Below, in pieces: positions 20,040-39,372 of a DNA stretch of 64,000 nt. Location: assembly GCF_029229925.1 (NCBI RefSeq), contig NZ_CP107254.1, forward strand, positions 1,488,001-1,552,000. Reading direction: 5' to 3'. The stretch's first letter is position 1; each line of letters begins with the position of its first letter. The position numbers and the translations under genes are program-made. A model generated the notes under the pieces. That model was given only the letters and a program-made list of their open reading frames with translations. It was not told the DNA's origin and did not search any database. This DNA comes from Halorhabdus sp. BNX81 (GTDB lineage Archaea > Halobacteriota > Halobacteria > Halobacteriales > Haloarculaceae).

Positions 20040-20114
20040 AGACTGGGTGGTTTCGGGGGACACAACGAGGGCCGATTTTTCGATTGTCGGTGTGACCGCT
20101 GGACAGTCCGGACG

Positions 20115-20121
20115 TTTATAT
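20115..20121 (+). promoter_or_regulatory. TATA box upstream of the TrkA-C-like gene pair
   Basis: TTTATAT, 160 nt before the ATG at 20278. This is long for a leaderless gene; either there is a leader of about 130 nt or translation begins earlier (a GTG at 20188 is in frame, but that part has no protein-like pattern). Confidence 0.45.
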
Positions 20122-20277
20122 CCGAAAGTCAGGCGAATAGGTTCTGTTAGCGACGGAGGGCAACACGGACCTTCCGTCGTCAGTTGGGTGAGCGATGCAT
20201 ATCGAACAAACCTCTCCGATGGCCGGGCGACAGGACCGACGAAAGGACGAATCACGATCGAAGCGAGACTCCCGCCG

Positions 20278-21729
20278 ATGACGGCGACCGCGCTTGCGAT
20301 ACTGCTGGGCGCAGGCTTCGGTCTCATTGTCGGGACCATCGTCGCCGGCACAACGGGAAGCATCGGGTTCGCCAGTCGATACGACAGGGGACATCAGCTG
20401 TCGACCGGTGCCGTCGTCGTTGTGGCGGGTTTGCTCGTCGGCGTCCTGTCTCTCCTGATCGTGACCGTCTCGCCGGGGATCGAATTCACTGCGACCGAAC
20501 AGTACCACCTGTCATTCCCAACAGTTCGGGCGATGGTGGGTTTCGGTGTCGAACACGCGCCGTTTGTAGGCGTATTCGGGGTCGTGTCGACGCTGCTTGG
20601 AGTGTACGGGTACAGCCAGGGTGACCGGATCGCCGGCGATATGCCGGCAACCGAGACGTCCCCGGGATACAATCGACGAGCACTAGCTCCGAAGACAGTG
20701 GCCTCGGCTGACGCGACCGGAAACATCTCTCTCGACGTGACCCGCGATAACCGGCATGTCGAGAACGGCTACTCACTTTCGCGGGAACAGTGGCATGCCA
20801 TCGAATCCCGGGCCTGGACAGTCCCGGTCGATCTGCCGATCGTGGAACTCGAATCGAGACTTGCGGCTCGTATTCAAACGACGGTCGGCGTCGATGTCTC
20901 CGCCGTTTCGATAGACCAGCAGGGACGAGCAACGGTTACCGCCGAACACTCCTCGAAATCGGTCGGGTCACAGTTGTCCGACGGGCAACGGGCAGTCACG
21001 GTGCGGACAGTCGTCCCCGCCGAACTGCAAGCCGGCGATCAGGTTACCCTTGTCAGTGACGCAGACGCTGTCGACGGTGTCGTTCTCGGGGTCGGTTCCG
21101 CTGGGAATCTGATCGATCCACCAGCGACCCAGCAACCGGAGACGTACCACGCCGGACCAGGGTCGCCGTCCGCTGGCCGGGCTGATCGAAGCGAAACCAC
21201 CATCGAACAATCGGATCCCGCGACCGGCGAGGACCGTCGGGTTTCGGTTGCCGTCGATGTCGATGACGTCACCACGATCCTGACGTCGACGGGCGTCGAT
21301 CTGTACGTGAACTCGTGTGATTCGAACGGGGCCTGCGGCGCATTTAGACAGTTGCAGCGCGCCGGACTGATTGTCCAGCACGTGACGGTCGACAAGCGGA
21401 CCCGGGAACAGCTCGACGACCACGCCGGCGATATCGAGATCCTTGCATATCGTCGCCCGGCGGAATCGGGGGACCCAACTGCCTGGCAGTTCCGAACCGG
21501 CGAGCAGTCCGCACGCGTTGACGAATCCGACAGACCGATAGCTGAAAGTGAAGCCGACGGTGTGTCAGATCACTCCGAGAACCCACAACCGTCAGCAGCC
21601 GATACGACTGCGGGCGATATCGAGCCATCTATTCCGCCAGGAACGGAGGTATTCGTGATCGGCAACGAACGTGTCCTGGCTCGACTCGGTGAAGGCAAAC
21701 CGGAGCTAGCCACGGGGGAAGCCCAATGA
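20278..21729 (+). CDS. Membrane protein with TrkA-C-like domain, first of a pair
   Basis: 483 residues from ATG at 20278. Three membrane spans near the start (ALAILLGAGFGLIVGTIV; STGAVVVVAGLLVGVLSLLIV; APFVGVFGVVSTLLGVYG) are followed by soluble regions with alternating beta/alpha pattern. The C-terminal part (about 345-480) carries a Cys pair (SCDSNGAC) and ends with EVFVIGNERVLARLGEG, close to the end of an RCK_C/TrkA-C domain. TrkA-C domains gate potassium transport by binding nucleotides, but no K+ pore is encoded. It overlaps the next gene by four bases (ATGA). Role unknown. Confidence 0.65.
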   Translation: MTATALAILLGAGFGLIVGTIVAGTTGSIGFASRYDRGHQLSTGAVVVVAGLLVGVLSLLIVTVSPGIEFTATEQYHLSFPTVRAMVGFGVEHAPFVGVFGVVSTLLGVYGYSQGDRIAGDMPATETSPGYNRRALAPKTVASADATGNISLDVTRDNRHVENGYSLSREQWHAIESRAWTVPVDLPIVELESRLAARIQTTVGVDVSAVSIDQQGRATVTAEHSSKSVGSQLSDGQRAVTVRTVVPAELQAGDQVTLVSDADAVDGVVLGVGSAGNLIDPPATQQPETYHAGPGSPSAGRADRSETTIEQSDPATGEDRRVSVAVDVDDVTTILTSTGVDLYVNSCDSNGACGAFRQLQRAGLIVQHVTVDKRTREQLDDHAGDIEILAYRRPAESGDPTAWQFRTGEQSARVDESDRPIAESEADGVSDHSENPQPSAADTTAGDIEPSIPPGTEVFVIGNERVLARLGEGKPELATGEAQ

Positions 21730-22928
21730 CGGTTGCGTTGCTTCCTGTGATCGGCGGACTGCCGGGAGAACCCGCGCAACTCTCGGCGCTCGTCTCGCCG
21801 ACCGTGCGCTCCGCAGCGATCAGTCTCGTCGGCTTCGCCGTTCTCGCAGTCCTCACAGCCGGCATCGGAGCGGTCGCCTATCGACGTCTCACATCGCGAC
21901 CGATACCTCTCGGCACGGCCATCCTCCTTGGCTGGGTGTCCGTGGCAACCTGGCTTACGGCCCGAATTGCGGCCGGGAGCGCCATCGTGTCCGATCTATC
22001 GATCGTTCTCGATGCAACCGGCTATTTTCTGCTCGCGGCGTTCGGACTGAGTGGCGCTGTGTCGGTCGGCGGCCGACGACTTGGGGATGCCATCGCCGGT
22101 GAGGTCGCCGAGAGTCCACCCGACGAGCAGTCCGAACAGACGGCAAAGAGACGGCGCTCGGCGAAACAGGCTACAAGCGTTGAGCTGCCTGACAGGATCC
22201 GAACTCGATCCGGAAGCGAGCCCGTCGAAGAGGATCTGAAACGCGAACTCGAAGGGGATACGTGGCTGTTTCCGAGTGGACTCCCACCCGCAGCACTCGA
22301 ATCGCGCTGCCGAGAGCGACTTGAACGGGACTACGGGATCGACCGTGTTGGGATTGAACTATCCGAAGACGGTGATATACGACAGCTCGCTATCGGGTAT
22401 GAGCCGTCCGGGTTGAGTGTCACCCTCCCTCCCCGAACAGTCGGTGTCGCGATCCGAAAGGCAATGGTTCCGGACGCGGCACCTGGCGATCCGATCGAGC
22501 TATGGACGGCCGACGAGGAACGCGTCGAATTCGCCGGCAGCGCCACACTCCATTCGACACCTACCGATACCGCGACGCTCGTCCTTCCGGAACAGGCAGC
22601 CCGGACACTCGGCGATATCGATGGGTACAGCCTCACGACGAAACCGGCAGTCCCAGACGACGTCACTGATTTCCTGTCCGTCCTGCGGGCCTGTGACCAC
22701 TCGATTACGATGCTATCGATCAGTTCGGGAGAACCACTGGAGGGCGAATTCGTCGGCTGGGTGGCTGTCGACGTGCTCGCGATTGTCAGGGACAGTACGG
22801 TACTCCCATTCCCTGACGAAACCGAAACACTTCGAAGCGGCGACGACATCTACGTCTTCGGCGGCCCGGCCGCGTTCGAATCGCTTGGGACGTTCGAGCG
22901 TGAGCGCCGATCGGAACTTCGGGATTGA
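21726..22928 (+). CDS. Membrane protein with TrkA-C-like domain, second of a pair
   Basis: 400 residues, overlapping the preceding gene by four bases. Three hydrophobic segments at about 24-50, 58-76 and 84-104 are followed by a basic linker (KRRRSAKQ) and soluble domains. The C-terminus, EFVGWVAVDVLAIVRDSTVLPFPDETETLRSGDDIYVFGGP split over 345-385, matches the TrkA-C beta-sandwich with its D-x-L-x-GD-x-I-V-G ending. The pair has the same layout and probably arose by duplication. Without a transport pore they may sense ions or act as anchors for the MinD-type gene that follows 41 bp later; this is inference. Confidence 0.65.
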   Translation: MTVALLPVIGGLPGEPAQLSALVSPTVRSAAISLVGFAVLAVLTAGIGAVAYRRLTSRPIPLGTAILLGWVSVATWLTARIAAGSAIVSDLSIVLDATGYFLLAAFGLSGAVSVGGRRLGDAIAGEVAESPPDEQSEQTAKRRRSAKQATSVELPDRIRTRSGSEPVEEDLKRELEGDTWLFPSGLPPAALESRCRERLERDYGIDRVGIELSEDGDIRQLAIGYEPSGLSVTLPPRTVGVAIRKAMVPDAAPGDPIELWTADEERVEFAGSATLHSTPTDTATLVLPEQAARTLGDIDGYSLTTKPAVPDDVTDFLSVLRACDHSITMLSISSGEPLEGEFVGWVAVDVLAIVRDSTVLPFPDETETLRSGDDIYVFGGPAAFESLGTFERERRSELRD

Positions 22929-22969: not shown

Positions 22970-24250
22970 ATGCTCGCAGTCGCAGGGACAAAGGGAGGCT
23001 GTGGAAAGACCACAACAGCCATCGGCATCGCCGAGGGGTTCGCTCGGGCGGACATCCCGGCAGTCGCCATCGACGCGGATCGACAGCTGCCGAACATCCA
23101 CGTCATCGGTGGGGTCGACCGGGAGCCGACGTTCGCTTCCCTCGCTGACGGCGACGGACTCTCAACGGTGTCACCGAGTCCCCGGGAACCGACGGCCGGC
23201 CTGCTTCCGGCACCGTTACCCACCGAGGACGTCGCGCTCGAATCCGTGCTCGATCGCCTCGCAAACAGCTCGGTTCGGACCGTCGTCGATTGCCCATCGG
23301 GCGCTGGCCCGGACGCCGTCGATCCCCTCTCAGCCGCCGACCGTGTCATCGTCGTCACGACGGACACGACCCGAAGTATCGAAGGGGCAAAAGCGACGAT
23401 CGACATGGCCGACCGTCTCGACGTCCCCGTCGCCGGGATCGTCCTCAATCAGTGTGATCGTGTGTCGCCGTCGCTTGTCGAAGCCATTGACCAGCCGATT
23501 CTGGCAGCGATCCCTGACAGGGAATCACCACTCGAACATCCGGAGACGTGCGAGGCCTACGATCGGATCGCATCGGAACTCAGCAACCGATGGGCTGAAA
23601 CGAACGGGTCACCGGCAGCAGCCGATCGGCTCACGACCGGTATCGAACCACTCGATGCAGCACTCGGCGGTGGCATTCCACACGGCAACGTCGTCGCCGT
23701 ACTCGCGGAGCCACCGAGCCAATCCGAGCAGCTTCTCTACGCGCTGACGGCCGCCCGCGGCACGTTATATCTCACCGTCGAACGCTCACGGTCGCATATC
23801 GAAGAATCGATCGACACAGCCCCTGTCACCGCCGGGAATCCGTCGATTCGACAGCTCGATGCCCCTGCTGTCTTGTCCGAGGCGAACGACTACGTCGAGA
23901 GCCTGCCGGATGGTGCCAATCTCGTCATCGACTCGATGGATGCCTTCGAGCGAACCGATCGCAAGCAGTTTCAGGCGTTTATGAACGGACTCGCCGAGCA
24001 CGTGAGACGGACTGAGTCGGTCGCGTTCTTGCATTGCCTCGACAGCGAAAACCCGCCCGATCTCAGACCGCTGACGATCCACGTTGCAGATCTGGTCCTC
24101 GAGTTCGAGGCGTCGATGGACGTCACCGGAATCTCCCAGCAGGTGACCGTGCCCAAGGTCCGTGGCGAGCCACTCCCTGCGGAAACGATCGATCTTGATC
24201 TCGTCGCCGAATCAGTCCTCCCAACTCGAAGTCCCTCTCACGGGGACTGA
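22970..24250 (+). CDS. MinD-KaiC fusion protein with a degenerate second P-loop
   Basis: 426 residues. Residues 1-210 are a MinD/ParA ATPase: deviant Walker A KGGCGKTTT at 8-16, DADRQLPN at 35-42, VDCPSGAG at 107-114, and VIVVTTDT. Residues about 220-420 look like KaiC/RadA: TTGIEPLDAALGGGIPHGN at 222-240, but the expected GxxGxGKT is AEPPSQSE (246-253), with no Lys or Gly triplet. The second Walker B, NLVIDSMDAF (317-326), is kept. So the first half can bind ATP, while the second probably cannot. MinD proteins sit on the membrane and position other machines, and a secretion-like island follows. Confidence 0.8.
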   Translation: MLAVAGTKGGCGKTTTAIGIAEGFARADIPAVAIDADRQLPNIHVIGGVDREPTFASLADGDGLSTVSPSPREPTAGLLPAPLPTEDVALESVLDRLANSSVRTVVDCPSGAGPDAVDPLSAADRVIVVTTDTTRSIEGAKATIDMADRLDVPVAGIVLNQCDRVSPSLVEAIDQPILAAIPDRESPLEHPETCEAYDRIASELSNRWAETNGSPAAADRLTTGIEPLDAALGGGIPHGNVVAVLAEPPSQSEQLLYALTAARGTLYLTVERSRSHIEESIDTAPVTAGNPSIRQLDAPAVLSEANDYVESLPDGANLVIDSMDAFERTDRKQFQAFMNGLAEHVRRTESVAFLHCLDSENPPDLRPLTIHVADLVLEFEASMDVTGISQQVTVPKVRGEPLPAETIDLDLVAESVLPTRSPSHGD

Positions 24251-24279: not shown

Positions 24280-24975
24280 TCACTGAACCCACCGGCCGTC
24301 GATCCGATGGCGACACTCCGCTAGACTCGCTGCGAGTTCCTCAAATCGTTCGACTGGGAAACTCTCGGGAAACGCATCACGAACGGGCACCCAATCTTCC
24401 TGAGCCCTGTGAATAGTCGTCCGCTGGGGGACGTAAGTCACAGGAGCGTTGAATCGTTTCCGGACCTCGGTCCGGCGTCGTTCGTACGTGGATTCGTCGG
24501 TCTGATTGAGAACGACGGCAACCACTGGGGTCTCGAGCTTGACGGCGAGGTCGCGCGTCCGCGCTGCGTTGGCCAGTGCCGCCTCGCTCGGGTTCGTTAC
24601 GAGCACCACAACGTCCGCACTCGCGATCTCACTGCCGACGTCTCGCGCCAGGCCGGCGGGGCAATCGATGACGACCGGACCAGACATCCGTTCGAGTCTT
24701 CCGACGACCGTCTCGAATGCCTGGAGATCAACTGCACGAGCCCCCTGAACAGTTCTCCCACAAGGAAGCAACTCCACGTTCCAGAACTCCTCGACCGCAT
24801 CCATTGGATCGGCACGGCCAGCAAGCACGTCGTGAAGATCCGGACCGGTGCCACGAGGCAGGTCTGCAGTCGAGAGATCCCCATCGACCACGACGGCATC
24901 CAGTTCCGCAGCCAGATTCAGTGCGACCGTCGACTTGCCGACGCCGCCCTTGCCACCAGCGACTGCAACGATCAT
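24280..24975 (-). CDS. MinD/ParA-type ATPase
   Basis: 231 residues from ATG at 24975. Deviant Walker A is KGGVGKST (9-16), followed by DGDLSTADLP, then VVIDCPAGLARDVGSEIASADVVVLVT split around 105-130. It matches the MinD family, although the C-terminal amphipathic membrane helix is not obvious. It overlaps the small gene upstream by four bases (ATGA) and is last in a minus-strand operon with the surface-protein genes, so a role in placing the apparatus is likely. It is separate from the MinD-KaiC fusion on the other strand; the two end 29 bp apart. Confidence 0.88.
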   Translation of the reverse strand: MIVAVAGGKGGVGKSTVALNLAAELDAVVVDGDLSTADLPRGTGPDLHDVLAGRADPMDAVEEFWNVELLPCGRTVQGARAVDLQAFETVVGRLERMSGPVVIDCPAGLARDVGSEIASADVVVLVTNPSEAALANAARTRDLAVKLETPVVAVVLNQTDESTYERRRTEVRKRFNAPVTYVPQRTTIHRAQEDWVPVRDAFPESFPVERFEELAASLAECRHRIDGRWVQ

Positions 24976-25340
24976 TGCCGATTTCGGACGATGTCCCTGG
25001 GCGGCCGCCACTCGTCAAGGTCACGAAGTACCGCCCCGGCGTCGTTTTCGAAGTCTGCTGGCGTTGCTCTGCGGATATCGACGACGGCTATCGGCGGGTC
25101 AGATGGTGTCGTCGGACTCGCAAAGCCAACTCCACGGGACTCTCCGGGCCGTAAAGCCGACTCCCAGCGGTCCCCATCCCATTGGGGCGCAGACACAGTC
25201 CCGTACTGGGGGTGCCAGGTTGGGCCCGCAAGTTGACTCGCAAGCCGGATTACCTGGGCTGTCCCGCGCGTGTTCGTGACTGTCGCCTGGACGAACGTAA
25301 CTCCCTGTTCAACCGTCGTGTCGGCGTTCAATTCGACCAT
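24972..25340 (-). CDS. Small beta-rich protein coupled to minD
   Basis: 122 residues from ATG at 25340 (an upstream in-frame start at 25403 is possible but overlaps the PGF-CTERM gene). The sequence has mostly beta pattern: VTFVQATVTNTRGTAQVIRL resembles a CARDB-like or immunoglobulin-like strand order, then short loops and an acidic C-terminal helix. No signal peptide, so it is cytosolic. No family was recognised with certainty. The stop overlaps the minD start, so the two proteins are made together, and it could be an adaptor of MinD. Confidence 0.6.
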   Translation of the reverse strand: MVELNADTTVEQGVTFVQATVTNTRGTAQVIRLASQLAGPTWHPQYGTVSAPQWDGDRWESALRPGESRGVGFASPTTPSDPPIAVVDIRRATPADFENDAGAVLRDLDEWRPPRDIVRNRQ

Positions 25341-25371
25341 GTGTGAGTGAAATCTCCGGCCGATAACCGGG

Positions 25372-27669
25372 TCATTGCTGTCTGGCGACCACCAGCCCCC
25401 CACCCAGGAGCGCCACCAGTGCGACGGTCACCCCGAAGCCAGGGCCGTTGGTTGTTGTCGTCCCGTCGCCGTCCGGTGGGCCGGCAGTAGTCGCTGCGCT
25501 GTTGGAGTCACTGTCGCCACCAGCGGAACCGGTGGCTGTGGTGGTGTGGCTACCGGCATCCGACTGTACGGTTACCGCCTCGGTCAGGGAATCGTCGCCG
25601 GCTGTGACACCGAATTCGAGCGTTCCGGCAGCGCCTGCGGTCACGTCAATATCGATTTCCTGAGTTTCGCCGGCTTCGAGACTCGTGTTTTCAACCGTCC
25701 GCTCGTCGCCAGCAACGTCGAGGCTGACCGCCGTCGACCCACCGATATCACCGGTATTCCGCACGGTGGCAGTCACCGTCATCGTCTCACCCGTATCGAC
25801 TGTTTCGGGCACGTCCAAACCAGCAACTTCGAACGTCGCTGGGGCGAGAATCGTCGTATTGGCCCGCCGCGTTGTCTCACCAAGCGACACCGCGTGTGTG
25901 ATGGTGCGACCGGTGGGCTTCGATGCGTTCACGTCAAAGGTCTGGGTCGTTTCACCCGGTTGGACGCGAAGTCGATCCGCAACGATCTGTCCGTCGCCAC
26001 GGAAAGTGACCGGAACCGAGACGGCAGTATCGGCGGTGTTCTCGAAGATCGCTTTCACGGCGTAGGTACCGCCGGGCGTGACGGTCTTCGGCGCGATGAC
26101 GTCCCGGAGCCTGACGCTGTCGTTGTCGACGACAGTCAGCTCACCAACATCGTGATCGCCGAGAGTGATATCGTATGAACCCGCTTGTCCAACGGACCAC
26201 GAGAACGTCGCTGTTGTCTCGTCGTGGCCGCCGACATGGACGGTATCCGAATGGACCGTCTCACCTTCGACGGTGGTCGAGATCGGCTCACTGCCGGGCA
26301 TCCCACCGTCGTTTTCGAGCGTGGCTGTGACAGCAGCGGTCGAGTTGGCGAGGATCGCCGACGTGTCGAGTGCCGCGTCGGTCATGGAGATGTCTGCAGG
26401 CGTGCGAACGTCGAGCGTCGCCGTGTCGGTTTTGCCGTTGACGGTCACTGAAATGTTGGTTTTGCCCGTCTCGGCCGGGGTAAGGGTTCCATCTTCGATG
26501 GTGACGGCGTTGCCGTCGAGATTGTAGTCGGCAGTTGTCGTGGCCGTCGTCGTCGAGCCATCGTAGAGATCCAACCGGACGGTGATATCGGTCGTGTCCT
26601 CGACGCTGACGAGCGAATTCGTCAGCGAGACGTCGACGTCTTTGACGTGCTGTTCGAGAACCGGATAGCTATCCGTCGTCATGAAGTCCGTCCCGACGAA
26701 CAGATACTCCATGTGCTCTTTCGCGGCTGAGCCAGTCATCTGCTCCGTCGTGAGGCCGGTAACGCTTCCCGGTCCCGCTCCGATTCCTTCTTCGATGCCG
26801 CTCTGTTCCGTGTCCCAATATGAAGATGAAATCTTGGGTGACCTAAATTCGTTAACTCGACCAACTAACCCGCCAATATCTTCACCACCTTGGACAGTAC
26901 CGGTTGCATATGATCTTTGTACATTTTTCGAACTTTTACCGAGCATCCCAATTAAACCGCCTGCCGAAATGTCAGTTGACTCTATATTACTATGAGAAAC
27001 GGATGAAGTGACGACACCACCAGTGCCAACATATCCAACCACTCCGCCAACATCTTCATCTCCCGTAACCCGGCCGTAAGTACTAGAACCGTGGAGGTTG
27101 GATTGATAAAGATCACCAACAATCCCACCAGTACCCCTTGATCCGCGTATCTCACCTGTTACAATTGACGAATTTATCTTTCCGTTTCTAAGGTGGCCAA
27201 CAAGACCTGCAGTTAGAATATCTCCTTGAATGTCTACATTCTTAAGATGGACTGAACGAATAGAACCACCGTTAATCACTCCAAACAGACCAATATGATT
27301 TTCCGACATCCGCATTATTGTTAATTCATTGATTATATGACCATTACCATTAAATGACCCTTGAAAGGGTTCGTTCAAATCTGATCCAATTGGATCAAAT
27401 CCTTTTCCACTGTTCCACTTTTCTGTCGAATTTGCCGCAATATCACTTCCAAGGACATAATTCGCTTCAAGATCCTCTTCCATGGCCTGTAATTCTTCCA
27501 CATTATTAATTATATAAGGGTTATCTTGGGTTCCCGATCCATTCATTTTTTCAAGGGGAGTTTCTCCCGCTCCAAAGACAATCCCAGAACTCACTATGCA
27601 TATCAAACAGATTCCGATGATAGCGATTGGAAGAGTTGTGGGAACCACTTTTGTGATTATATCGTTCAT
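25372..27669 (-). CDS. PGF-CTERM surface protein with GLUG repeats
   Basis: 765 residues. A signal peptide (about 1-33: TTLPIAIIGICLICIVSSGIVFG) is followed by a beta-helix region with GLUG-type units such as GLFGVINGG, GGIVGDLY, GGVVGYVG, GGLIGMLG, GGLVGRVN (about 130-290), then several CARDB-like beta-sandwich domains (about 350-690), a Thr/Ser/Gly-rich stalk, and a C-terminal GPGFG-VTVALVALLGGG-LVVARQQ segment (742-765), the PGF-CTERM sorting signal of archaeosortase A substrates. It would be cleaved and lipid-anchored on the cell surface. The N-terminal ~280 codons are AT-rich, the C-terminal part GC-rich, so the gene is a composition mosaic. Confidence 0.9.
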   Translation of the reverse strand: MNDIITKVVPTTLPIAIIGICLICIVSSGIVFGAGETPLEKMNGSGTQDNPYIINNVEELQAMEEDLEANYVLGSDIAANSTEKWNSGKGFDPIGSDLNEPFQGSFNGNGHIINELTIMRMSENHIGLFGVINGGSIRSVHLKNVDIQGDILTAGLVGHLRNGKINSSIVTGEIRGSRGTGGIVGDLYQSNLHGSSTYGRVTGDEDVGGVVGYVGTGGVVTSSVSHSNIESTDISAGGLIGMLGKSSKNVQRSYATGTVQGGEDIGGLVGRVNEFRSPKISSSYWDTEQSGIEEGIGAGPGSVTGLTTEQMTGSAAKEHMEYLFVGTDFMTTDSYPVLEQHVKDVDVSLTNSLVSVEDTTDITVRLDLYDGSTTTATTTADYNLDGNAVTIEDGTLTPAETGKTNISVTVNGKTDTATLDVRTPADISMTDAALDTSAILANSTAAVTATLENDGGMPGSEPISTTVEGETVHSDTVHVGGHDETTATFSWSVGQAGSYDITLGDHDVGELTVVDNDSVRLRDVIAPKTVTPGGTYAVKAIFENTADTAVSVPVTFRGDGQIVADRLRVQPGETTQTFDVNASKPTGRTITHAVSLGETTRRANTTILAPATFEVAGLDVPETVDTGETMTVTATVRNTGDIGGSTAVSLDVAGDERTVENTSLEAGETQEIDIDVTAGAAGTLEFGVTAGDDSLTEAVTVQSDAGSHTTTATGSAGGDSDSNSAATTAGPPDGDGTTTTNGPGFGVTVALVALLGGGLVVARQQ

Positions 27670-28251: not shown

Positions 28252-29355
28252 ATGACCTTCGTCATCGGCCGCGGGGAAGCGACCGACGAAGCACTGCCGA
28301 AAATGCGACTCGGTGCCTACAGAGCGCTCGACGGCAGTCACGGGGCCGACCTCTATCTCGATCTGGACGGCCCACACTCGATACTGGTCGTCGGCAAGCG
28401 CGGCTACGGGAAGTCATACACGCTTGGCGTCATCGCGGAAGGACTCTCGCGGACGGCTGGCGTCGCACCGACGGTTATCGATCCGATGGGGGTGTTCACC
28501 TCCCTGGCGAGCGATTCGAGCAGCGACTCGGGCCACGATTCGATTGCCGGGACAGTCATGGACGATCCAGCAGTCATCCCGGATTCGCTTGATCCTCGGT
28601 CGTGGTGTGCGCTTCTGGGTCTCGATCCCGAAAGCGGCGCAGGGAGTCTCGTCTGGCAGGCAGCACAGGAACGCTCGACGCTTGCGGGTATGGCTACCTC
28701 TGTCACCGAGCGCGATGCCCCCGCCCGGGACGAACGCGCTGCGGTCAATCACCTCCGACTCGCCGAATCCTGGGGCGTCTTCGACGAAAACGGCATCGAC
28801 GCCGAGATGCTTTCGAGCGGCGAGATCACCGTCCTCGACGTCTCCGGGCTCGATTCCGCGCCGATGAACGCCGTCTGTCGCGGCGTTGGCGAGGCGCTGT
28901 ACCGCGCCAGCGTGCGTGACACCATCGATCGCCTGCCGTGGCTGCTGGTCGACGAGGCACACACGTTCTTCGACGGCGTTGCCAGGAGTGCCCTCGAAAC
29001 GATACTCACGCGAGGGCGTGCACCCGGCGTGAGCCTCGTCTCGGCGACCCAGCGGCCGAGTGCTGTCCCGGACGTGGGGATCTCTCAGTCGGACGTACTC
29101 GTCTCGCATCGACTGACTGCGGGGGCCGATCTCGATGCGCTCACGCGGGCGCAGCCGACGTATCTGAACGGGTCGCTTTCCGATCGAATGCCGACCGAAC
29201 CCGGCAATGTCGTCATCATCGACGACGCGACAGAAACGGTCCACGCAGCCCAGGTTCGCGACCGCGAGACGCCACACGGCGGCGACAGCCCGTCTGTGAG
29301 CGAAATGGATGTATCGGACGGCAGTCCGTTCGGGAGCAAAACGGCCATGGATTAA
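28252..29355 (+). CDS. HerA/VirB4-like P-loop ATPase
   Basis: 367 residues. Walker A GKRGYGKS at 48-55, Walker B LLVDEAHTFFDG at 231-242, and SATQRPSAVP (264-273) as the sensor strand are those of DUF87/HerA-like motors. The N-terminal strand-rich part (MTFVIGRGEAT) fits the HAS barrel start but the whole barrel is short. HerA-like ATPases pump DNA or proteins as hexamers; those with TadA/TadC neighbours may be a secretion motor. No NurA nuclease is nearby, which argues against the DNA end-resection HerA. It is first of the plus-strand genes and separated by 173 bp from the next. Confidence 0.8.
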   Translation: MTFVIGRGEATDEALPKMRLGAYRALDGSHGADLYLDLDGPHSILVVGKRGYGKSYTLGVIAEGLSRTAGVAPTVIDPMGVFTSLASDSSSDSGHDSIAGTVMDDPAVIPDSLDPRSWCALLGLDPESGAGSLVWQAAQERSTLAGMATSVTERDAPARDERAAVNHLRLAESWGVFDENGIDAEMLSSGEITVLDVSGLDSAPMNAVCRGVGEALYRASVRDTIDRLPWLLVDEAHTFFDGVARSALETILTRGRAPGVSLVSATQRPSAVPDVGISQSDVLVSHRLTAGADLDALTRAQPTYLNGSLSDRMPTEPGNVVIIDDATETVHAAQVRDRETPHGGDSPSVSEMDVSDGSPFGSKTAMD

Positions 29356-29528
29356 ATCATGCGGCTGACGCTCGTCCCTCGCGATTCGGCTCCGATGATG
29401 AGAGACAGGCCACTAATCTGTCGGTGCAGAGCGGACAAACTGCGTCGGTCAAATCCGCCGCGTTTCTCGACATACCGGTGGGAACTGTCTCGACAGATGA
29501 TGAATGAGTGTGAGCGTCCCCAGACGCA

Positions 29529-30017
29529 ATGATCCGATACGTTCTCGCGATAATCCTGACCACTGCACTGCTGGGAATCGGCGTTGCAGGCGTCGATCAC
29601 GCCGCGACCGTCAGGAGCGAACAGCAGGTCGAAAATCAGATCGCCAAACTGGAAACGGCGGCGATGTCACTCCTCGAAACCGAAGAGCCGACACCACGGG
29701 GACAGAAGGGGCCACGACGCATCGTCGAACTCGATCTCCCGTCCGCTGGGTTCGCGTCCAAAACAGTCGACACGTTCCGAATCCGCCCGGATCCACGTGG
29801 CGTCTCAATCATCGAATACCGCGTTGACGAGCGAATGACACGAACGGAACACGTTGAGGCCACCATCAGGAACACGGACAGCTCGAACGGGATGACAGCG
29901 TTCGGTGACCACACAGGAACCGTGACAGTCGCCCTCTCACTTTCGCAAGCAAGCGACAGCCCTGACAACGATCGAGAGGTGTACATCGCCCTTCGTGTGG
30001 TGTCGAGAAATGAGTGA
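29529..30017 (+). CDS. Single-TM protein upstream of the secretion ATPase
   Basis: 162 residues. One N-terminal hydrophobic helix with a very short leader (IRYVLAIILTTALLGIGVAGVDHAA, about 2-26) is followed by a helical stretch SEQQVENQIAKLETAA and a beta-rich domain. This is the layout of pseudopilins and TadE-like proteins, but no prepilin peptidase motif is obvious. I recall a haloarchaeal family (DUF7311) at this place before the ATPase gene; that is unverified. It is likely anchored in the membrane with its domain outside. Confidence 0.6.
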   Translation: MIRYVLAIILTTALLGIGVAGVDHAATVRSEQQVENQIAKLETAAMSLLETEEPTPRGQKGPRRIVELDLPSAGFASKTVDTFRIRPDPRGVSIIEYRVDERMTRTEHVEATIRNTDSSNGMTAFGDHTGTVTVALSLSQASDSPDNDREVYIALRVVSRNE

Positions 30018-30071
30018 TTCCAGTGGGGAATCGGCACTGCACCGTCGCGATCTGGACGTGCGGTGCGTGCG

Positions 30072-30079
30072 TTTATAAT
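30072..30079 (+). promoter_or_regulatory. TATA box of the secretion ATPase operon
   Basis: TTTATAAT, centred about 26 nt before the ATG at 30102. This both marks a promoter and decides the start: an in-frame GTG at 30063 lies upstream of the TATA box and so is not used by this transcript. Confidence 0.65.
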
Positions 30080-30101
30080 GGAGTGGGCAGCCAGCATCGC
30101 C

Positions 30102-32036
30102 ATGCCGGATACGCCCGCTGGATCGTCGGCCACAGCCTTCGCCCGGAAGTTGGGGCTCGAAGCACTACTGGAGGTGATATCTGGAGACGGGGCAGACGCG
30201 TGTGACTGCCTGCCGGAACGAGACGGCGACCAGTTGCTCGTCGACGCAAGCGAGTGTGACGGCGATCTCGGGGCATCCCCGAACTGTCGGGAGACCGTCG
30301 TCGGGGAGCTCGTGGCCGATCCTGCCAAGGAGATCCTGGTCCGATCGAACGGCTTTCGCTATCGGTATCGACACGACGCAGCGGCGTTACTATCGGCTGC
30401 AGGTCGGTTTATCGGTCTGCTTGGCGACCGGGAGAACGCCGTCGAACAACGGGTCGTGACTGAGCCGCTCGCGGTCGCTAGCGAGCTCCGTGAGCGAGTC
30501 GATCCGATCGCGGACATCGGCGTCGAATCCGGACTGCTGGAAACGGCCGCCCGAATCGACGACGTACCCGACGTGCTGACGCCGGAACTCGGTCTCACGA
30601 TCGGCCATTACTTCGTCGACAAATCGATCGACGAGGATTCCCGACTCAAGGCGGTCGTCTCCCTCGATACCGGCAGTGAAGCGCGGATATATGCACGTTC
30701 TGACGGCGTCCCTCTGTACGCGGTCGATCCGGTCGACCTCAAGCTGTCTGCGTCAGAGAGAGGGATTCTGCTGGATGGATACGAGCGGATCGCAAACGGC
30801 GAGATAGCCGGTGAGAGAGCCGCCACTCACGCGATCGAAGAGGCAAGCGACGGCGCAGTCGATCCGATGGTGGCGTCGATCCTTCGGAAACACACACAGG
30901 GGTACGGGATTCTCGAAGACCTCTTCGCCGACCCGGAAATTACCGACGTATACGTCACCGCACCGGTATCGCGGAATCCGCTCAGAGTGGTTCGCGGTGG
31001 CGAATCGATGTCGACGAACGTCTTTTTGAGCATCGACGGTGCACACGCCATCGCATCACGGATCAGACGAACGAGTGGGCGGGCGTTCTCGCGTGCGACG
31101 CCAACGGTCGATGCGAAAGCGACACTCGACAGTGAAACGGACGTGCGGGTGGCCGGGGTGACCAAACCGGTCTCCGACGGGATCGCATTCGCGTTCAGAC
31201 AGCAGGCCGCGGACCAGTTCACCCTACCGAAACTCGTCCGGAACGGCACACTCTCTCCGGACGTCGCCGGGTTCCTGTCGGTCGCGGTCGAATCGAGTGC
31301 CGCAACACTCATCGCCGGCACGCGCGGGGCTGGAAAGACCACGCTCCTTGGCACATTGCTGTATGAACTCACAGCGGACACGCGAACTGTCGTGATCGAG
31401 GACACCCCCGAGTTGCCGATCGAATCGTTACAATCCGTCGGGCGGGACGTCCAGGCACTCCGAACGGGCACCGGCCACGGCCCGGAAGTGACGCCAGCCG
31501 AGGCCCTTCGGACGGCTCTGCGACTCGGAGATGGCGCGCTCGTGGTGGGCGAAATTCGCGGTGAGGAGGCCCAGGTGCTGTATGAAGCGATGCGGATCGG
31601 GGCAAACGCCAACGCCGTTCTCGGGACGATCCATGGCGACGGGGCGGACGACGTCTACGAGCGGGTCGTCTCGGATCTCGGTGTCGAACCCTCATCGTTC
31701 GCGGTTACCGATCTGGTAGTCACGACTCAGGCTACACCGACGCCACAGGGGCGTGATCGTCGCGTCTCCCGAATCGAGGAGGTGATATACGATGGCAGTG
31801 ACGTGTGGTTCGAGCCGCTCTACGAGAGCGACGGCACCGCCGCACGACCGACTGGTCGGATCGAGCAGGGCGAGAGTCGATTTATCCATCAGCTGTCCGG
31901 TCCCGAGGAGGCTTACGCCGACGTCAGGGAATCGATCGCCGAGCGCGCCGACCGGTTGGGACGGCTCGCAGGGGACGGCCGAACCAAACCGACAGAGGTC
32001 GCCGGCGCGTACGCCGACCGCATCCGAGCCGACTGA
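30102..32036 (+). CDS. TadA-type type II/IV secretion ATPase
   Basis: 644 residues. Walker A GTRGAGKT at 406-413, ASP-box region VIEDTPELPIESLQ near 431-444, Walker B GALVVGEIRGEEA at 478-490, and the HIS-box GTIHGDGADDVYERV near 508-522 are typical of archaeal GspE/TadA motors that power pilus assembly. The first 65 residues carry four Cys (34, 36, 52, 62), absent from the usual core and possibly a metal site. It would act as a hexamer below the membrane with the TadC-like protein encoded next; the stop overlaps the next start (TGATG). Confidence 0.94.
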   Translation: MPDTPAGSSATAFARKLGLEALLEVISGDGADACDCLPERDGDQLLVDASECDGDLGASPNCRETVVGELVADPAKEILVRSNGFRYRYRHDAAALLSAAGRFIGLLGDRENAVEQRVVTEPLAVASELRERVDPIADIGVESGLLETAARIDDVPDVLTPELGLTIGHYFVDKSIDEDSRLKAVVSLDTGSEARIYARSDGVPLYAVDPVDLKLSASERGILLDGYERIANGEIAGERAATHAIEEASDGAVDPMVASILRKHTQGYGILEDLFADPEITDVYVTAPVSRNPLRVVRGGESMSTNVFLSIDGAHAIASRIRRTSGRAFSRATPTVDAKATLDSETDVRVAGVTKPVSDGIAFAFRQQAADQFTLPKLVRNGTLSPDVAGFLSVAVESSAATLIAGTRGAGKTTLLGTLLYELTADTRTVVIEDTPELPIESLQSVGRDVQALRTGTGHGPEVTPAEALRTALRLGDGALVVGEIRGEEAQVLYEAMRIGANANAVLGTIHGDGADDVYERVVSDLGVEPSSFAVTDLVVTTQATPTPQGRDRRVSRIEEVIYDGSDVWFEPLYESDGTAARPTGRIEQGESRFIHQLSGPEEAYADVRESIAERADRLGRLAGDGRTKPTEVAGAYADRIRAD

Positions 32037-33742
32037 TGTCAGTTGGTTCCATGCTGCTGGTTGGTCTCGCACAGCTGTATCCCGTCGACGTCGATGTGAG
32101 TGCCGAACTCGCCGATTCGGTGACGTTTCTGGATTCGACCCATGCGCCGGAAACCTACGTCAGAGCCGGGTTCGGTGCCGGCATCGTCGGTGCAGTGGCT
32201 CCGGTTACCCTCGTACTCTGGCTGCCATGGTATGGCGCCACGTTCGCCTCGCTAATCTGCTCGCTGTCGGCGATACATGTGATACAGACGCTTCCACACG
32301 TACAGGCAGCGTTCAAACGGACCGAAGCGCTCGGCGACGCACCGAATCTGATCGGCCGGGCTGTCCTGCGAATGCAGATCGAACCCGCGACCGAATCCGC
32401 CGTCAGATTCGCTGCTGACACTGGATCGAGTTCGCTCGCGGCGAATCTGTCGACACATATCGACGCTGCCGTCGGCACACCACGAACTGGGCTGTTATCG
32501 TTCGCGGAAGAATGGGCCGACCGCTTTCCCGCGATGCGACGGTCGGCGTACTTGCTCGCAAGTGCACAGCAGGCCCCGGACGGTGAGCGAGCCCGGACGC
32601 TCGATCGGTCGCTCGCAGCCGTTCTGGATGGGACGCGTGATCGGATGGCCGAGTTCACGAACGCCATCCGTGGGCCGACGACGATGCTGTATGCCTTTGG
32701 CGTGATGGTGCCCCTCGCCCTTGTCGCGCTTGTCCCTGCCGTCGGGTTCGTCGGCTACGATATCAGCATCTGGTATCTCGTCGTGGGGTACGACATCGTC
32801 CTGCCGATTGGGCTTACCGGGGCGAGTCTCTGGCTGCTCAAACGACGCCCGATCGCGTTTCCGCCGCCGAAGGTAACGCGTTCCCATCCGGACGTCCCCT
32901 CTCGGTTGCTCCCGACGCTCCTGTGGGGGGCCATCGGCGTCATCGCCGGGTACACACTCGTGACGGTGCTGGGCGTGACACACCTGGCTCCAGTGACAGC
33001 TGCCGGACTCGGCATCGGAGCCATGTTGATCGCCTACGTCCGTCCGATCCTCCACGTCCGGACGCACGTTCGGGAGATCGAGTCAAATCTCACTGACGCA
33101 CTCTATCTCACGGGACGGCTTGTCGACGACGGCAAATCCGTCGAGACGGCGATCCAGCGGGCTGGCGATCAGGTCCCGGCAGCGACGGGCGAGCTGTTCG
33201 AGCGAGCAGCCGGGCTTCAACGCCGGCTGCACCTGAGCGTCCAAGAGGCCTTCCTCGGGGAGTACGGGGTCGTGAAAGACGTACCCAGCCCGCGGGTCCG
33301 GGCGACCGTCGAACTACTCGCCATCGCGGCCGAGCAGGGCGCACCGGCCGGCCGCGCGATCGTCTCGATGGCCGACCACCTCGACGAACTCAGGGACGTC
33401 GAGGCACAGACGCGGCGACAGCTGTCGACGATTACGGATACGATCGACAATACAGCCACCTTTTTTGGACCGATGGTCGCCGGAGCAACGGTCGGGCTCG
33501 CTGGCGGGCTTTCAAACGATGGAACGGCAGTGCTTGCGGAGGCAACGACGTTGCCGACCGACCAGCTCGGCCTCGTGATCGGCGGCTACGTCATCTCGCT
33601 GTCGTTCATTCTGGTACCGCTCTCGGTCGCCCTCGAAGACGGTCTCGACAGGCCACTCATCGGGTACCGGGTCGGTCGGTCACTCCTCGGGGCCGTTCCG
33701 ATCTACGTCATCACCGTGGTGGTCGTCGGCCTGACATTCTGA
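32036..33742 (+). CDS. TadC/GspF-type membrane platform protein
   Basis: 568 residues, overlapping the ATPase stop by one base. About nine hydrophobic segments are arranged as two T2SSF domains, each a pair or triple of spans after a helical cytoplasmic region (HVQAAFKRTEALGDAPNLIGRA near 85; RTHVREIESNLTDALYLTG near 345). Family role: a rotor or platform in the membrane on which the secretion ATPase acts to add pilin subunits. Length and domain doubling match archaeal TadC homologues. The coupling to the ATPase shows they work together. Confidence 0.88.
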   Translation: MSVGSMLLVGLAQLYPVDVDVSAELADSVTFLDSTHAPETYVRAGFGAGIVGAVAPVTLVLWLPWYGATFASLICSLSAIHVIQTLPHVQAAFKRTEALGDAPNLIGRAVLRMQIEPATESAVRFAADTGSSSLAANLSTHIDAAVGTPRTGLLSFAEEWADRFPAMRRSAYLLASAQQAPDGERARTLDRSLAAVLDGTRDRMAEFTNAIRGPTTMLYAFGVMVPLALVALVPAVGFVGYDISIWYLVVGYDIVLPIGLTGASLWLLKRRPIAFPPPKVTRSHPDVPSRLLPTLLWGAIGVIAGYTLVTVLGVTHLAPVTAAGLGIGAMLIAYVRPILHVRTHVREIESNLTDALYLTGRLVDDGKSVETAIQRAGDQVPAATGELFERAAGLQRRLHLSVQEAFLGEYGVVKDVPSPRVRATVELLAIAAEQGAPAGRAIVSMADHLDELRDVEAQTRRQLSTITDTIDNTATFFGPMVAGATVGLAGGLSNDGTAVLAEATTLPTDQLGLVIGGYVISLSFILVPLSVALEDGLDRPLIGYRVGRSLLGAVPIYVITVVVVGLTF

Positions 33743-33759
33743 GTGTCTGCATCTCCGAG

Positions 33760-33767
33760 TTTAAGTA
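33760..33767 (+). promoter_or_regulatory. TATA-like element before the pilin-like gene
   Basis: TTTAAGTA, about 34 nt before the ATG at 33798, slightly farther than the leaderless norm. It may allow separate expression of the downstream pilin-like genes. Confidence 0.4.
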
Positions 33768-33797
33768 CGATACCCGGGCCAGGGGGTGCAAGCGCAT

Positions 33798-34250
33798 ATG
33801 CAAGAGGACGAATCGCCGACCCGCGGACAGACCGAACCGCTGGCAGCACTCGCGGCAGTCGCACTCGTGTGTACGGCGATCACCCTGTATACCGGGTTGT
33901 ATGGCGAGCTCTTCGACGGGGTCGGTCAGGACCGATCACTCGGTGAGGTCACGACCGAGCGGGTCTGGGAGGCGATCGGGGAGAACGCCATCTACGATAG
34001 TGACGACGATCTACCGACCCTGATCGAAGCCTCAACAGTCCCGCAGGGTGCGACCGTGAAAGTCACGGTAACGCACGTCGGCGACGGGGGTCGGATCGAA
34101 ACAGCCGGGACAGCGACGTTCGACGCCCAGGGTGACGTGATCCGGACGGACCCGCCGACTGCCGCCGAGCGATACAACCGCTCAGTCCCGGTCCGAATCT
34201 CGCCGGGCGACGTCCAGCCGGGGACGCTCACGGTGGTGGTCTGGTCGTGA
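33798..34250 (+). CDS. Pilin-like protein with class III signal peptide
   Basis: 150 residues from ATG at 33798. The N-terminus TRGQTEPLAALAAVALVCTAI fits an archaeal class III signal: a short charged leader ending in Gly, then Q-T-E and a hydrophobic helix, cut by a prepilin peptidase between G and Q. The rest is a short beta-rich domain with VPQGATVKVTVTHVGD and a closing GTLTVVVWS strand. A minor or structural pilin of the island apparatus is likely. It overlaps the next gene by four bases (GTGA). No prepilin peptidase is encoded in the window. Confidence 0.75.
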   Translation: MQEDESPTRGQTEPLAALAAVALVCTAITLYTGLYGELFDGVGQDRSLGEVTTERVWEAIGENAIYDSDDDLPTLIEASTVPQGATVKVTVTHVGDGGRIETAGTATFDAQGDVIRTDPPTAAERYNRSVPVRISPGDVQPGTLTVVVWS

Positions 34251-35242
34251 TCGAGACGGACCGGGGGGTCAGTACTGTCGCGGACGTGACGCTCGCGATC
34301 CTGTTGGTCGTCGCTGCGATGGGCGTTCTCGTGACGGTCGTCGAACGCGAGGAAGCCGGCCACGACCCGATGACGGCGGAGTACACGGCCGAAACGATCG
34401 CGTCCGGGACGATGAACGTCACCTACGATGTCCGAGCGGCGCTCGAAGCGTACGACGGTCCCGGCGCGGCCCACGACGGGACGGACTACACCGACGAAGA
34501 GCTCCGCCGGCTCGCACATCGGCCAATGGTTGCTCACGCTGCAGCAGCCGCCGTGTTGAATCTCGAATTCGATCTCGGGAGGCTTCGAGGGGAAGCCGAT
34601 CATGGGGCCGTCGAACTGTCCACGGAAGCCGCCGCATACGAACGCGCTGTCGATGAAGCATTCCAGACGCGCCTCGTCGAATCGAGTTTCGACACGCAGG
34701 TGATCGCCGTCTGGGAGCCACTCGACGGTGGACCACTGCGCGGGACGGCCGAGTTTGGCCAGCGCCCACCTCCACAGGCCGACGTAAGTGCCTCGACCAT
34801 CACCGTCCCGGTCGACATGCCGTCGGTCCGGGAGCAGACAATCGATCGAGTCGACGATCCGGACGATTTCGACGTCGTCGCGACCGCCCTCGCCCGGTCG
34901 CTGGTCGAGGGATATCTGCCGGCCCGACGATCACAGCGAGCACTCGAAAGCAATGGCGTCGCCCGCGACCTGACGGCGTATCGATACCAGCGGTTTGCAC
35001 AGGTTCTGGAGACTGAGACGAACGACGTCGAATCGACCGTCGCCCCCGCGCTTTCGCGGCGGACTGCCAACGCGACGAAAGCAAACGCGGCGTTGACCCG
35101 GGCCTTGGCGGCCCAGCTCGAAGCCTACCTCGAACCCGATGATTCCACGCAGCCAGCCGCCGGGCCGCTCGGGAACGCAACAACCGCAGCCGAGCGCATC
35201 TCGACCGGGGCAGTGCGTGTGACGGTGAGAACATGGCAGTGA
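34247..35242 (+). CDS. Pilin-like single-TM protein, 331 residues
   Basis: GTG start overlapping the preceding stop. DRGVSTVADVTLAILLVVAAMG at residues 5-26 looks like a pilin N-terminus: a short charged leader, G-V-S-T before a hydrophobic helix. The rest is long for a pilin and mostly helical, with QxxxV-type patches and Asp/Glu-rich surface, ending ISTGAVRVTVRTWQ. It overlaps the next gene by ten bases. It is probably exported through the machine and anchored by its N-terminal helix. No specific family was recognised. Confidence 0.65.
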   Translation: MIETDRGVSTVADVTLAILLVVAAMGVLVTVVEREEAGHDPMTAEYTAETIASGTMNVTYDVRAALEAYDGPGAAHDGTDYTDEELRRLAHRPMVAHAAAAAVLNLEFDLGRLRGEADHGAVELSTEAAAYERAVDEAFQTRLVESSFDTQVIAVWEPLDGGPLRGTAEFGQRPPPQADVSASTITVPVDMPSVREQTIDRVDDPDDFDVVATALARSLVEGYLPARRSQRALESNGVARDLTAYRYQRFAQVLETETNDVESTVAPALSRRTANATKANAALTRALAAQLEAYLEPDDSTQPAAGPLGNATTAAERISTGAVRVTVRTWQ

Positions 35243-38200
35243 GAGACAGCACCAAAAGTCCAAGGGCGCGTCGACAGGCAACTGCGACTCCCCACAGACA
35301 ACTGGGGAACGATACTCGTGGACGGGTGCCGTTCGCGATCATCGGCGTCCTGCTATTGCTCACGAGCGTCACGTTCGTTGGCCACACCCTGACGCGATCG
35401 GCGGTAACTCCGAACGTCGACGCGAGCGTCGCCATCTCCCAGACGGAGGGCGTCACCCAGTCAGCGATCCGGACCGGCGCACAGCATGGGATCGAAACCG
35501 CCGCGTCCCAACCGTTGACCGAGACGAGCGATACCAGGTGGGGAGCGGTCCTCAATGCGAGCGACCCGGACACCGCCAGGGAGTCACCGGACAAACTGGT
35601 CGACGGGAAACTGGCATCCGGGACGTTCCGGAACTATCTCCGGGCGATGATCTATCTCGAAGTCCGATCGTCGCTGGAACGTGCTGGACAGCGGGTTGGC
35701 GACGTCCGGACGAATGTCTCGGTACCGAACGTGGGGAGTCCCGCTGCACTCCGGGCAGCGATCGATCGAGTCTCGCTTGGGGAGCCGGCCGAAGGCGTTC
35801 TCGAAGTGACGATCGAGAACGTGACAATCACCGCTCGGTCCGAGGGCCGGGTGATCGACGACCGCGAGACGGCGATCTCAGTGTCGATCGCAACGCCGAT
35901 CATGCAACTACATCAGCGTGTCGAACGGTTCGAACGTGCCCTCGATGCTGGCGTGACCGAACGCGGTTTTTCACAGCGGTTCAACGCGCGGATCTACGCA
36001 CTGGGCTGGGCACGGGGATACGCCCAGAACTACCAGGCACCGATCGCTCAGGTCCTCGCCAACAGACACATCGAACCCGCCGCAAACGACGCCGTCTACC
36101 GGACCCAAAAAGACGTCTTCGGCGCGGCCGACCCGGAGCTACAGGACGCCAACAGACTCGGCTGGACCTGTATGGCATTGAAAGACGGCGGGGCGATGTT
36201 CGACGAATACATGGGATCGAACGACGTCAGCTACCGGAACAGCACCTATACCGGTGACGAGCTGGTTTTCGATCGTTCGAACGGATCGGATCTCTCGGCC
36301 AGCGTCCCGACTGACGGCAAAGGTGTGGCAGACACACTTTGTTCAGGGGCGGAACTGGCGCTCGGCGATCAGGTGACCGGTGAGCTACCGGAAGCTCCGG
36401 GAACCCGTGACCTCCTCGGGGACGCGCCAGGGATGAACGCGACCGATACCATCGGCGTCAACCAGACTGCCTATGTGCCCCTTGCCAGGATGGCATCCGC
36501 GGATAGTACGCATTCCATCGACAGTGCCATCGACCGGATCTATACGATCGATGGCCGGGCGCATACTCGAAGCACAGTCGTCGATCCGCTTGACCTCTCC
36601 GGGAGCGCCACGTGCAACAACTCGGCCCACGCAGATGGAACGTACACGGTTACCGATCGGATATCAGTCGATGGCGAATCGATAGCAGAAGCTACCCCAC
36701 AGGAAGAGTACTACGAGGCGACGTCGACTGTCGAAGCGAGGGTGACGAAGTACAAAAAATGTCATCCAGAGCCTGAGAACCCGATGATAGCCACTGATAC
36801 CATGGAGCTGGAGGTTACAACGACGTTCGGGGAAGCCGATGCGAATCCGGCCGCCGAGATCGACGCGATACACTCGGTCCCGATCGGCGAGAACAAGTAC
36901 AATCGAGGGAGTCGGATCGCCGGATTGCCGAGTGATTTCAGGAACTACGCCGGTGGGGGCAAAAAGGTGACAGCGTCGTTGCTCGGTGCTGATATCAGCC
37001 CGCACGCACACGCATCGTGGGTCGAATCAGCGGTACCGAACCGGATCGAGAGTGTAGCGGACGTTAGTGCAGGGATCGACGCCGAGTTGAACGTCAAGAA
37101 ACGAGTAACACTCGATCACGAGAAGTTTCTCGACGCGAAACTCGCTGCAGCGATCGCTTCCGATCTCGCCGAGATGCAGCGGGACGCCGCGGCCATCACA
37201 CACGAGTATTCGCGGACGGACTTGCTCAAACGCGGTGAGCAAAGTCCGTTCACCCGCCTCATCGAAAAGACAGAGACAACACTGAGCGAGCAATACCTCG
37301 ACCGAACGAAACCCTACGATAGCGTGGGCCAGAAAGCGATCTACGAGGCTCGGTATGCCTATCTTCAGGCGTTGCTTGCGGAACTCGAAACTGTCGAGGA
37401 CGGCCACGAAAGCGCAGTTGAGGGAATCGACGACAAGTTCGAAGCGGTCGATTTGAGTCTGGACAAAGCGCTGACCTTTCTACAGGCAGGAATCGCAGCC
37501 AAAGAACCCGATCCAGTCCCACTCGATTCATCGAATCTGACCGGGACCATCTCCTACGAGGTCACGGGCGCGCCGACCTACCTCGTCGCGGCAAACCTCA
37601 CCAAACGGGATGTCCCGGCGATCGAGGCAAACACCACGTTCACACCACTTGCAATGCGAAACGAGGAGCTATTCGATTCCCCGCTCGACGACATCGTCGA
37701 CGGCACTGTCGGGGCCGTGCTGAACGCGATCAACCTGGGGGGGCCGGACGCGACAGTCCCCATCAAGACGGCTGGGGATATACTCATGGCCGGGAATCTC
37801 GCAGAAGCCGCCGGCGATAACCCGATCACGAACAGGAGTTTCGAGCGGTCCCTGGACGCCTTCGAAGATAGCGTCAGCGAGTCGGTCAAGACGGTTAGCG
37901 AAACTGTCGCTGAGGACACGGTCCGCCAGTTGTATCCCACAGAAGCCGCAGCCTGCGTCGTGGGTGAGAATACGCGTGGCCGGAGAGTCGCGTGTTCGAG
38001 CCAGTATAGCGAGTCGCTGATCGAGACGATCAGGACTGCTCACGCGGAGATCAAACGGAGCACAGACACGGCCCTGGACAGCTACGACACGACGGCCCAA
38101 CGAGCGGTCGCGATCGGCAACGGCACGGCCACGGAACGGATCGTTACAACGGTCACGCAAACCATCGATTCGGACGCCTATCGCCATCCGGCATTCACCG

Positions 38201-38850: not shown

Positions 38851-38856
38851 AATCAC

Positions 38857-39372
38857 ATGGACTTCGAAGCACCAGTCGACGCGTGGTATGTCTGGATCGG
38901 CGTCGCCGTCGTGAGCGTGACGCTGGTTGGGTTCGTGCTTGGATTGCCGTCCCAGCCGCCGCCGGACGCAACGAAAGCAGTCAATACGATCGATCGAGTC
39001 GCCGGGGCAACCCAGGAATCAGCAGCGATCTATACCCACGACGCCGCCGAAATCAGGATCGATACCCGACGAGTTGCAATGCGAAACGACGGTGGCACCA
39101 CCCGTGAGTCCGTCGCCTTTGGCTCACTCACACCAGTGAAAGCAGTCGAAAACGCCACTATGCGGGAGGCATTCGACAGAATCGTTCACGGTCAGCGGCC
39201 GGAATCCGTCATCGCAGAATACAGTTTCAACACGACGGCATTGCTCTCGAAAGCCGAGCGGACGCGCAAGCGGATCGACACCAACGGTGTCGCGTGGCGG
39301 CGGACCGACGGCGAGCTCGTCGTGCGTCGGATCGAGATCGACGGGACATCACTCGTGCTCATAGACGCATGA
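38857..39372 (+). CDS. Single-TM protein after the 1205-residue protein
   Basis: 171 residues, starting six bases after the previous stop. One N-terminal span (YVWIGVAVVSVTLVGFVLGL, about 10-30) is followed by PPPDATKAVNTIDRVAG and a mixed domain ending VVRRIEIDGTSLVLIDA. It is predicted to be anchored in the membrane with the domain outside. Its stop overlaps the start of a micro-ORF by four bases (ATGA). Likely another member of the apparatus; family not recognised with confidence. Confidence 0.65.
   Translation: MDFEAPVDAWYVWIGVAVVSVTLVGFVLGLPSQPPPDATKAVNTIDRVAGATQESAAIYTHDAAEIRIDTRRVAMRNDGGTTRESVAFGSLTPVKAVENATMREAFDRIVHGQRPESVIAEYSFNTTALLSKAERTRKRIDTNGVAWRRTDGELVVRRIEIDGTSLVLIDA

Follow-up and report, generated by a model that had tools for sequence, protein, structure and literature searches.

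A MinD–DUF7125 fusion protein lacking a second P-loop and its association with a pilus-like machine in Halobacteria

The fusion gene and its surroundings

The window analyzed here is a stretch of 64,000 nucleotides from Halorhabdus sp. BNX81 (NZ_CP107254.1, positions 1,488,001 to 1,552,000 of the forward strand). The gene under study encodes a protein in which a MinD-type ATPase is fused to a DUF7125 domain. It is located 5.8 kb upstream of the T2SSE gene of a pilus-like machine and is surrounded by genes for membrane proteins, a second MinD and a DUF7857 protein. Positions below are those of the window.

20047–21729, + strand: membrane protein with two predicted transmembrane stretches, a conserved partner gene
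21726–22928, + strand: membrane protein with a weak TrkA_C (RCK_C) domain, 41 bp upstream of the fusion gene
22970–24250, + strand: MinD–DUF7125 fusion protein of 426 aa, ATG start and TGA stop
24280–25011, − strand: second, separate MinD with intact Walker A, a conserved partner gene
24972–25403, − strand: DUF7857 protein, overlapping the second MinD gene
28252–29355, + strand: HerA/DUF87-like ATPase adjoining the machine
29529–30017, + strand: DUF7311 protein with an N-terminal membrane segment, upstream of T2SSE
30063–32036, + strand: motor ATPase of the island machine, a T2SSE of the TadA/PilB type
32036–33742, + strand: T2SSF platform protein of the PilC/ArlJ type, scoring just below the Pfam cut-off
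33786–39372, + strand: DUF7285, DUF7284, DUF7286 (1205 aa) and DUF7283 proteins of the same machine

Within the fusion gene, the following parts can be distinguished.

22970–23527, + strand: MinD/FleN-type half, aa 1–186, with GTKGGCGKTT and conserved K8, K13, D37 and D107
23528–23623, + strand: linker, aa 187–218, much longer in genome G160
23624–24208, + strand: DUF7125 half, aa 219–413, KaiC/RecA fold by profile
23705–23728, + strand: pseudo-P-loop AEPPSQSE, aa 246–253, in which S252 and E253 stand where Walker A has Lys and Thr
23780–23785, + strand: aa 271–272 (E-R), where KaiC has its catalytic Glu-Glu
23918–23932, + strand: Walker B strand LVIDS, aa 317–321
24155–24163, + strand: K396-x-R398, aligned with the trans-acting K457/R459 of KaiC

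The original prediction of a reading frame whose MinD half has an intact deviant Walker A motif was borne out. Residues 2–186 match CbiA/MinD (Pfam, E = 2e-12), the motif reads GTKGGCGKTT, and the closest solved structure is that of an archaeal MinD (1hyq, E = 4e-9). The MinD/ParA signature (KGGxGK, the switch I Asp and the Walker B Asp) is present in this half, with K8, K13, D37 and D107 conserved at 99% or more across relatives. The half ends near aa 212, where it runs into DUF7125, and the C-terminal amphipathic membrane-targeting helix of MinD proper is absent from it. In the fusion of another genome (L044, G212), the Walker A of the MinD half reads GSKGGCGTST with the P-loop lysine replaced, and both halves of that protein may be inactive, judging from these residues.

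The second half matches DUF7125 (PF23442) over residues 219–413 with 160.7 bits (E = 3.2e-47), against a curated cut-off of 29.1 bits. A family profile of 43 sequences aligned end to end with KaiC (8zn5, E = 1.5e-15), and its weaker matches were SSO2452 (1e-11), ArlH (4yds, 3e-8) and RadA. A KaiC/RadA-like half retaining GGGIPHGN (residues 233–240) and Walker B, with AEPPSQSE at the P-loop, had been described from the letters of the window, and the profile alignment to KaiC confirms it: the AEPPSQSE stretch falls on the KaiC P-loop. This half can fairly be described as a predicted KaiC fold in which the P-loop is replaced; the description is derived from profile comparison and not from a structure, the single-sequence structural model of the fusion (pLDDT 36) being unusable. 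A sequencing slip can be dismissed, since congeners of 69–71% identity, and the family throughout, have this motif at that position.

Loss of the P-loop throughout the DUF7125 family

DUF7125 domains were gathered from genomes of Halobacteria and of the remainder of the phylum, giving 137 non-redundant domains (78 stand-alone, 42 fused and 17 from outside the core Halobacteria). The Walker A signature GxxxxGK[ST] was found in none of the 137, whether fused, free or non-haloarchaeal. The second P-loop is thus absent, as had been claimed, but it was not lost in the fusion itself, since it is missing from every DUF7125 examined. A loss specific to the fusion was rejected on the same grounds, as stand-alone and non-haloarchaeal members share it; the loss is family-wide and of ancestral origin. 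The check for the same loss in all homologues, proposed with the original prediction, therefore returned no homologue with an intact P-loop. Three proteins that do have one (L205, L206 and L210) were considered and rejected, their scores lying far under those of DUF7125 members; they were read as ArlH- or RadB-like proteins of other families, which is our own reading and not a database match. At L203, L200 and L208, a further KaiC-like family of haloarchaea was seen, which differs from DUF7125 and whose P-loop is partly degraded (GEAGAGAREF, for instance).

The motif that replaces the P-loop, PxSQxE, is itself conserved. Nearly all halobacterial domains have xxPASQxE at this site, and AxPxSMxE is common outside Halobacteria. 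A variant, GEPDGHAE, is found in three fusions of one genus (g7; L110, L115 and L117) with reading frames of 552 aa. Conservation in the family reaches 99% for E253, 95% for P248 and 100% for the Walker B residue D321. The pair of catalytic glutamates that follows strand 2 in KaiC is replaced by x-R, with R272 conserved at 96%, and the KxR motif, which aligns with that of KaiC, is retained (K396 100%, R398 99%).

In KaiC, the ATP phosphates are held by K294 of the same subunit and by K457/R459 of the next one, and E318/E319 are the catalytic, Mg-binding glutamates (PMC2777353). As Walker A and the catalytic glutamates are gone and KxR is retained, DUF7125 preserves the trans half of a KaiC-type ATP site, and its cis half is lost. 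The claim that the second half is a pseudo-ATPase is therefore supported at the level of sequence, by the absence of Walker A and of both catalytic glutamates. The preserved trans-acting KxR suggests that this half may be more than a mere platform.

Association with pilus-type motors

DUF7125 is present in 140 of the 145 sampled Halobacteria genomes, and the window genome has one fused and one stand-alone copy. Separate MinD and DUF7125 genes adjoin in nearly all Haloferax-like genomes and in many others. In a tree of 81 DUF7125 domains, a clade of 33 rows (SH-aLRT 95) unites the fused ones and three stand-alone proteins, and two changes between the fused and stand-alone states suffice. No relatives were found in a search of a viral collection.

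The presence of the fusion was compared with that of a window-type T2SSE, defined by at least 58% identity to the T2SSE of the window. In the uncorrected count, this T2SSE occurs in 43 of 43 fusion genomes versus 1 of 46 supposedly fusion-free ones (Fisher P ~1e-24, phylogeny not being allowed for). The sole exception among the 46, G160, was found on inspection to encode a long-linker fusion (MinD, linker and an ADPASQSE domain) ~12 kb from its T2SSE. It was moved to the fusion group after the exception had been seen, which brings the counts to 44 of 44 fusion genomes and none of 45 non-fusion relatives from the same families. Eight genera contain both states, and in all of them fusion and window-type T2SSE agree. 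The distance between the two genes is below 12 kb in 26 of the 43 genomes (12 of 19 genera); in the other 17, the T2SSE lies far off or on another contig. Twelve of the 45 non-fusion genomes have some T2SSE match, only 46–51% identical. A link between the fusion and the island machine, at first offered as a guess, is strongly supported by the 44 of 44 versus 0 of 45 genomes and by the short distance in 26 of 43. This pairing suggests that the fusion positions or controls that machine. A corresponding linkage of separate MinD/DUF7125 pairs was rejected, as none of the 13 genomes had such a pair close to a window-type T2SSE, so that strict pairing is confined to the fused form. The pilus-like machine itself (28252–39372) is largely uncharacterised, and its T2SSE varies between presence and absence within one genus.

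Of 24 genomes outside the core Halobacteria, 12, representing at least eight families, have DUF7125 downstream of T2SSF with both genes on one strand. It follows T2SSF directly in eleven of these, and one gene intervenes in G313; a T2SSE is located upstream of the DUF7125-linked T2SSF. An operon of the order MinD-T2SSE-T2SSF-DUF7125 is found at four loci (L214, L216, L217 and L220), and its T2SSE has PilB3 domains (PilB3_N/C) in the three tested. The MinD proteins of these basal operons end, as judged by eye, in GFVxKMAKxIFG or similar. For the basal DUF7125 proteins tested, the best NCBIfam model is mostly ArlH/FlaH (E down to 3e-10), with 17–40 bits against cut-offs of 194–215; ArlH was not among the matches for the window protein. 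In core Halobacteria, a long relative of the basal T2SSE occurs in 27 of 28 genomes with DUF7125 versus 1 of 8 without it, in a table that was read by eye and with BLAST comparisons of relatedness at only a few loci. This association is regarded as a lead. A long T2SSE of this kind (~750–1400 aa), related to the ATPase of the basal MinD-PilB-PilC-DUF7125 operons, can be seen for example at L222 (G000:C1:1698000-1714000).

Proposed role and comparison with known systems

The fusion is probably a dedicated positioning or control subunit of the T2SSE/T2SSF pilus-like machine, with DUF7125 docking on the motor and the MinD cycle exerting the control. The MinD half would bind ATP and cycle between states like MinD, FlhG and FleN. 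The DUF7125 half, an ArlH-related pseudo-ATPase of predicted KaiC fold, would dock on the base of the motor (the T2SSE ATPase and/or the T2SSF platform), and the MinD cycle would set where, when or how many machines are active. DUF7125 would be unable to form an ATP site of its own. With its KxR, which would reach the site of a neighbor, it may complete a partner KaiC-fold subunit's ATP site or gate it, a trans action that is speculative. We infer the docking from that of ArlH on ArlI (PMC8978795). The direction of control, by which the MinD half would determine place, number or timing, is modeled on FleN/MinD in flagella and on what has been proposed for archaeal pili (PMC4858521).

ArlH is the KaiC-like partner of the archaellum motor ArlI and binds ATP through its P-loop (PMC8978795). 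Like ArlH, DUF7125 has a predicted KaiC fold and is encoded with a motor of the T2SSE/T2SSF type, and among curated models, most of the basal DUF7125 proteins tested match ArlH best. DUF7125 differs in its missing P-loop, in scores far below the ArlH cut-offs and in its place in pilus rather than archaellum operons. The analogy is incomplete, since ArlH binds ATP via an intact P-loop. KaiC-family and FleN/MinD ATPases have been associated with archaeal pili as potential regulators (Makarova 2016, PMC4858521). The pilus KaiC-family ATPases comprise arCOG01171-01175; in Methanomicrobia, some of them may share a transcript with the ATPase/TadC operon. They resemble DUF7125 in their KaiC fold and pilus link but are described as ATPases, and the accessible part of that paper reports neither a dead P-loop nor a fusion to MinD (PMC4858521); DUF7125 may be one of these arCOGs.

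The MinD half shares the deviant Walker A, switch and Walker B residues with FleN/FlhG/MinD (arCOG00589; MinD4 and MinD2 of Haloferax), whose cargoes include motility and pilus machines. It differs in being fused to a KaiC-fold domain, in ending before the amphipathic membrane tail and in not being of the MinD2 type (K16/D117). That HVO_0596, the operon partner of MinD2, is a DUF7125 protein was considered and rejected: the published MinD2 fingerprint, K16/D117, fits L077, and the next reading frame there matches no Pfam family. L077 (G112:C30, 1489-2858) contains an apparent Haloferax MinD2 (K16/D117) overlapping a gene of 200 aa, which would be the HVO_0596 homologue. A further parallel is found in cellulose secretion, where the MinD-type BcsQ and BcsE, a protein with an N-terminal domain of predicted RecA/KaiC-like fold and ruined Walker A, act jointly in assembling the secretion machine (PMC7439463). 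There too, a MinD-type ATPase and a ruined RecA-like domain serve a secretion machine, but BcsQ and BcsE are separate proteins, the RecA-like domain of BcsE oligomerises and a different BcsE domain binds BcsQ (PMC7439463); no homology is claimed.

The positioning role has to be weighed against the nearest conserved neighbors of the fusion, which count against it: the TrkA_C-type pair, DUF7857 and the second MinD. This set may be a membrane anchor or a signal input and is the main rival partner. Relatives of the protein at 21726–22928 reach the Pfam cut-off for TrkA_C; two TrkA_C-type genes recur beside the fusion at L098, L099, L101, L108 and L109, and DUF7857 and the second MinD recur there and at L100, across several genera. 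The fusion could accordingly serve this membrane module, for example in sensing an ion or nucleotide signal, and merely travel with the pilus genes in one island. This is unlikely, given that L100 and L107 are without the TrkA_C pair in the 14–15 kb examined and have T2SSE/T2SSF 2–3 kb away, and that the linkage of DUF7125 with T2SSF extends to fusion-free lineages, in which no TrkA_C-type gene was seen next to it. That the MinD half positions chromosomal or cytoskeletal cargo, DUF7125 being a dimerisation module with no machine as partner, would fit the many cargoes of the MinD family; the strict co-occurrence with one T2SSE and the basal operons with pilB/pilC make it highly improbable.

Other readings concern the replaced loop. 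DUF7125 might be the donor of a half-site, joined in a hetero-oligomer to ArlH or some other active KaiC-fold ATPase on whose ATP K396/R398 would act, as suggested by the 99–100% retention of the trans-side KxR next to the loss of all cis-side residues (roles as in PMC2777353). No active KaiC-fold partner adjoins in the loci read, and KxR could be kept for reasons of fold or oligomerisation alone. This idea, which is compatible with the positioning role and does not exclude it, is less likely than not. The conserved rather than decayed replacement motif and the invariant D321 would also fit a new ligand site, in which E253, R272 and the PxSQxE loop bind a nucleotide or another ligand and DUF7125 is an unusual sensor instead of a dead enzyme. 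With the Walker A signature positions and both catalytic glutamates gone, such a site is improbable.

DUF7125 was named in no paper found by literature search. That KaiC-like and MinD-like genes occur near archaeal pili was already known. What appears to be new is the dead P-loop, together with the fusion and its strict pairing. ArlH has hitherto been regarded as a dedicated part of the archaellum. A broader and rather doubtful proposal is that DUF7125 might be an archaea-wide pilus counterpart of ArlH, one-sided in that it binds no ATP and extends a KxR finger to the site of a partner, and here wired to MinD so that pilus placement would be coupled to the state of the motor. Taken with the tie to pilus motors, a pseudo-ATPase with a preserved trans half-site that is fused to MinD would connect positioning ATPases to the surface machines of archaea in a concrete way that genetics can test.
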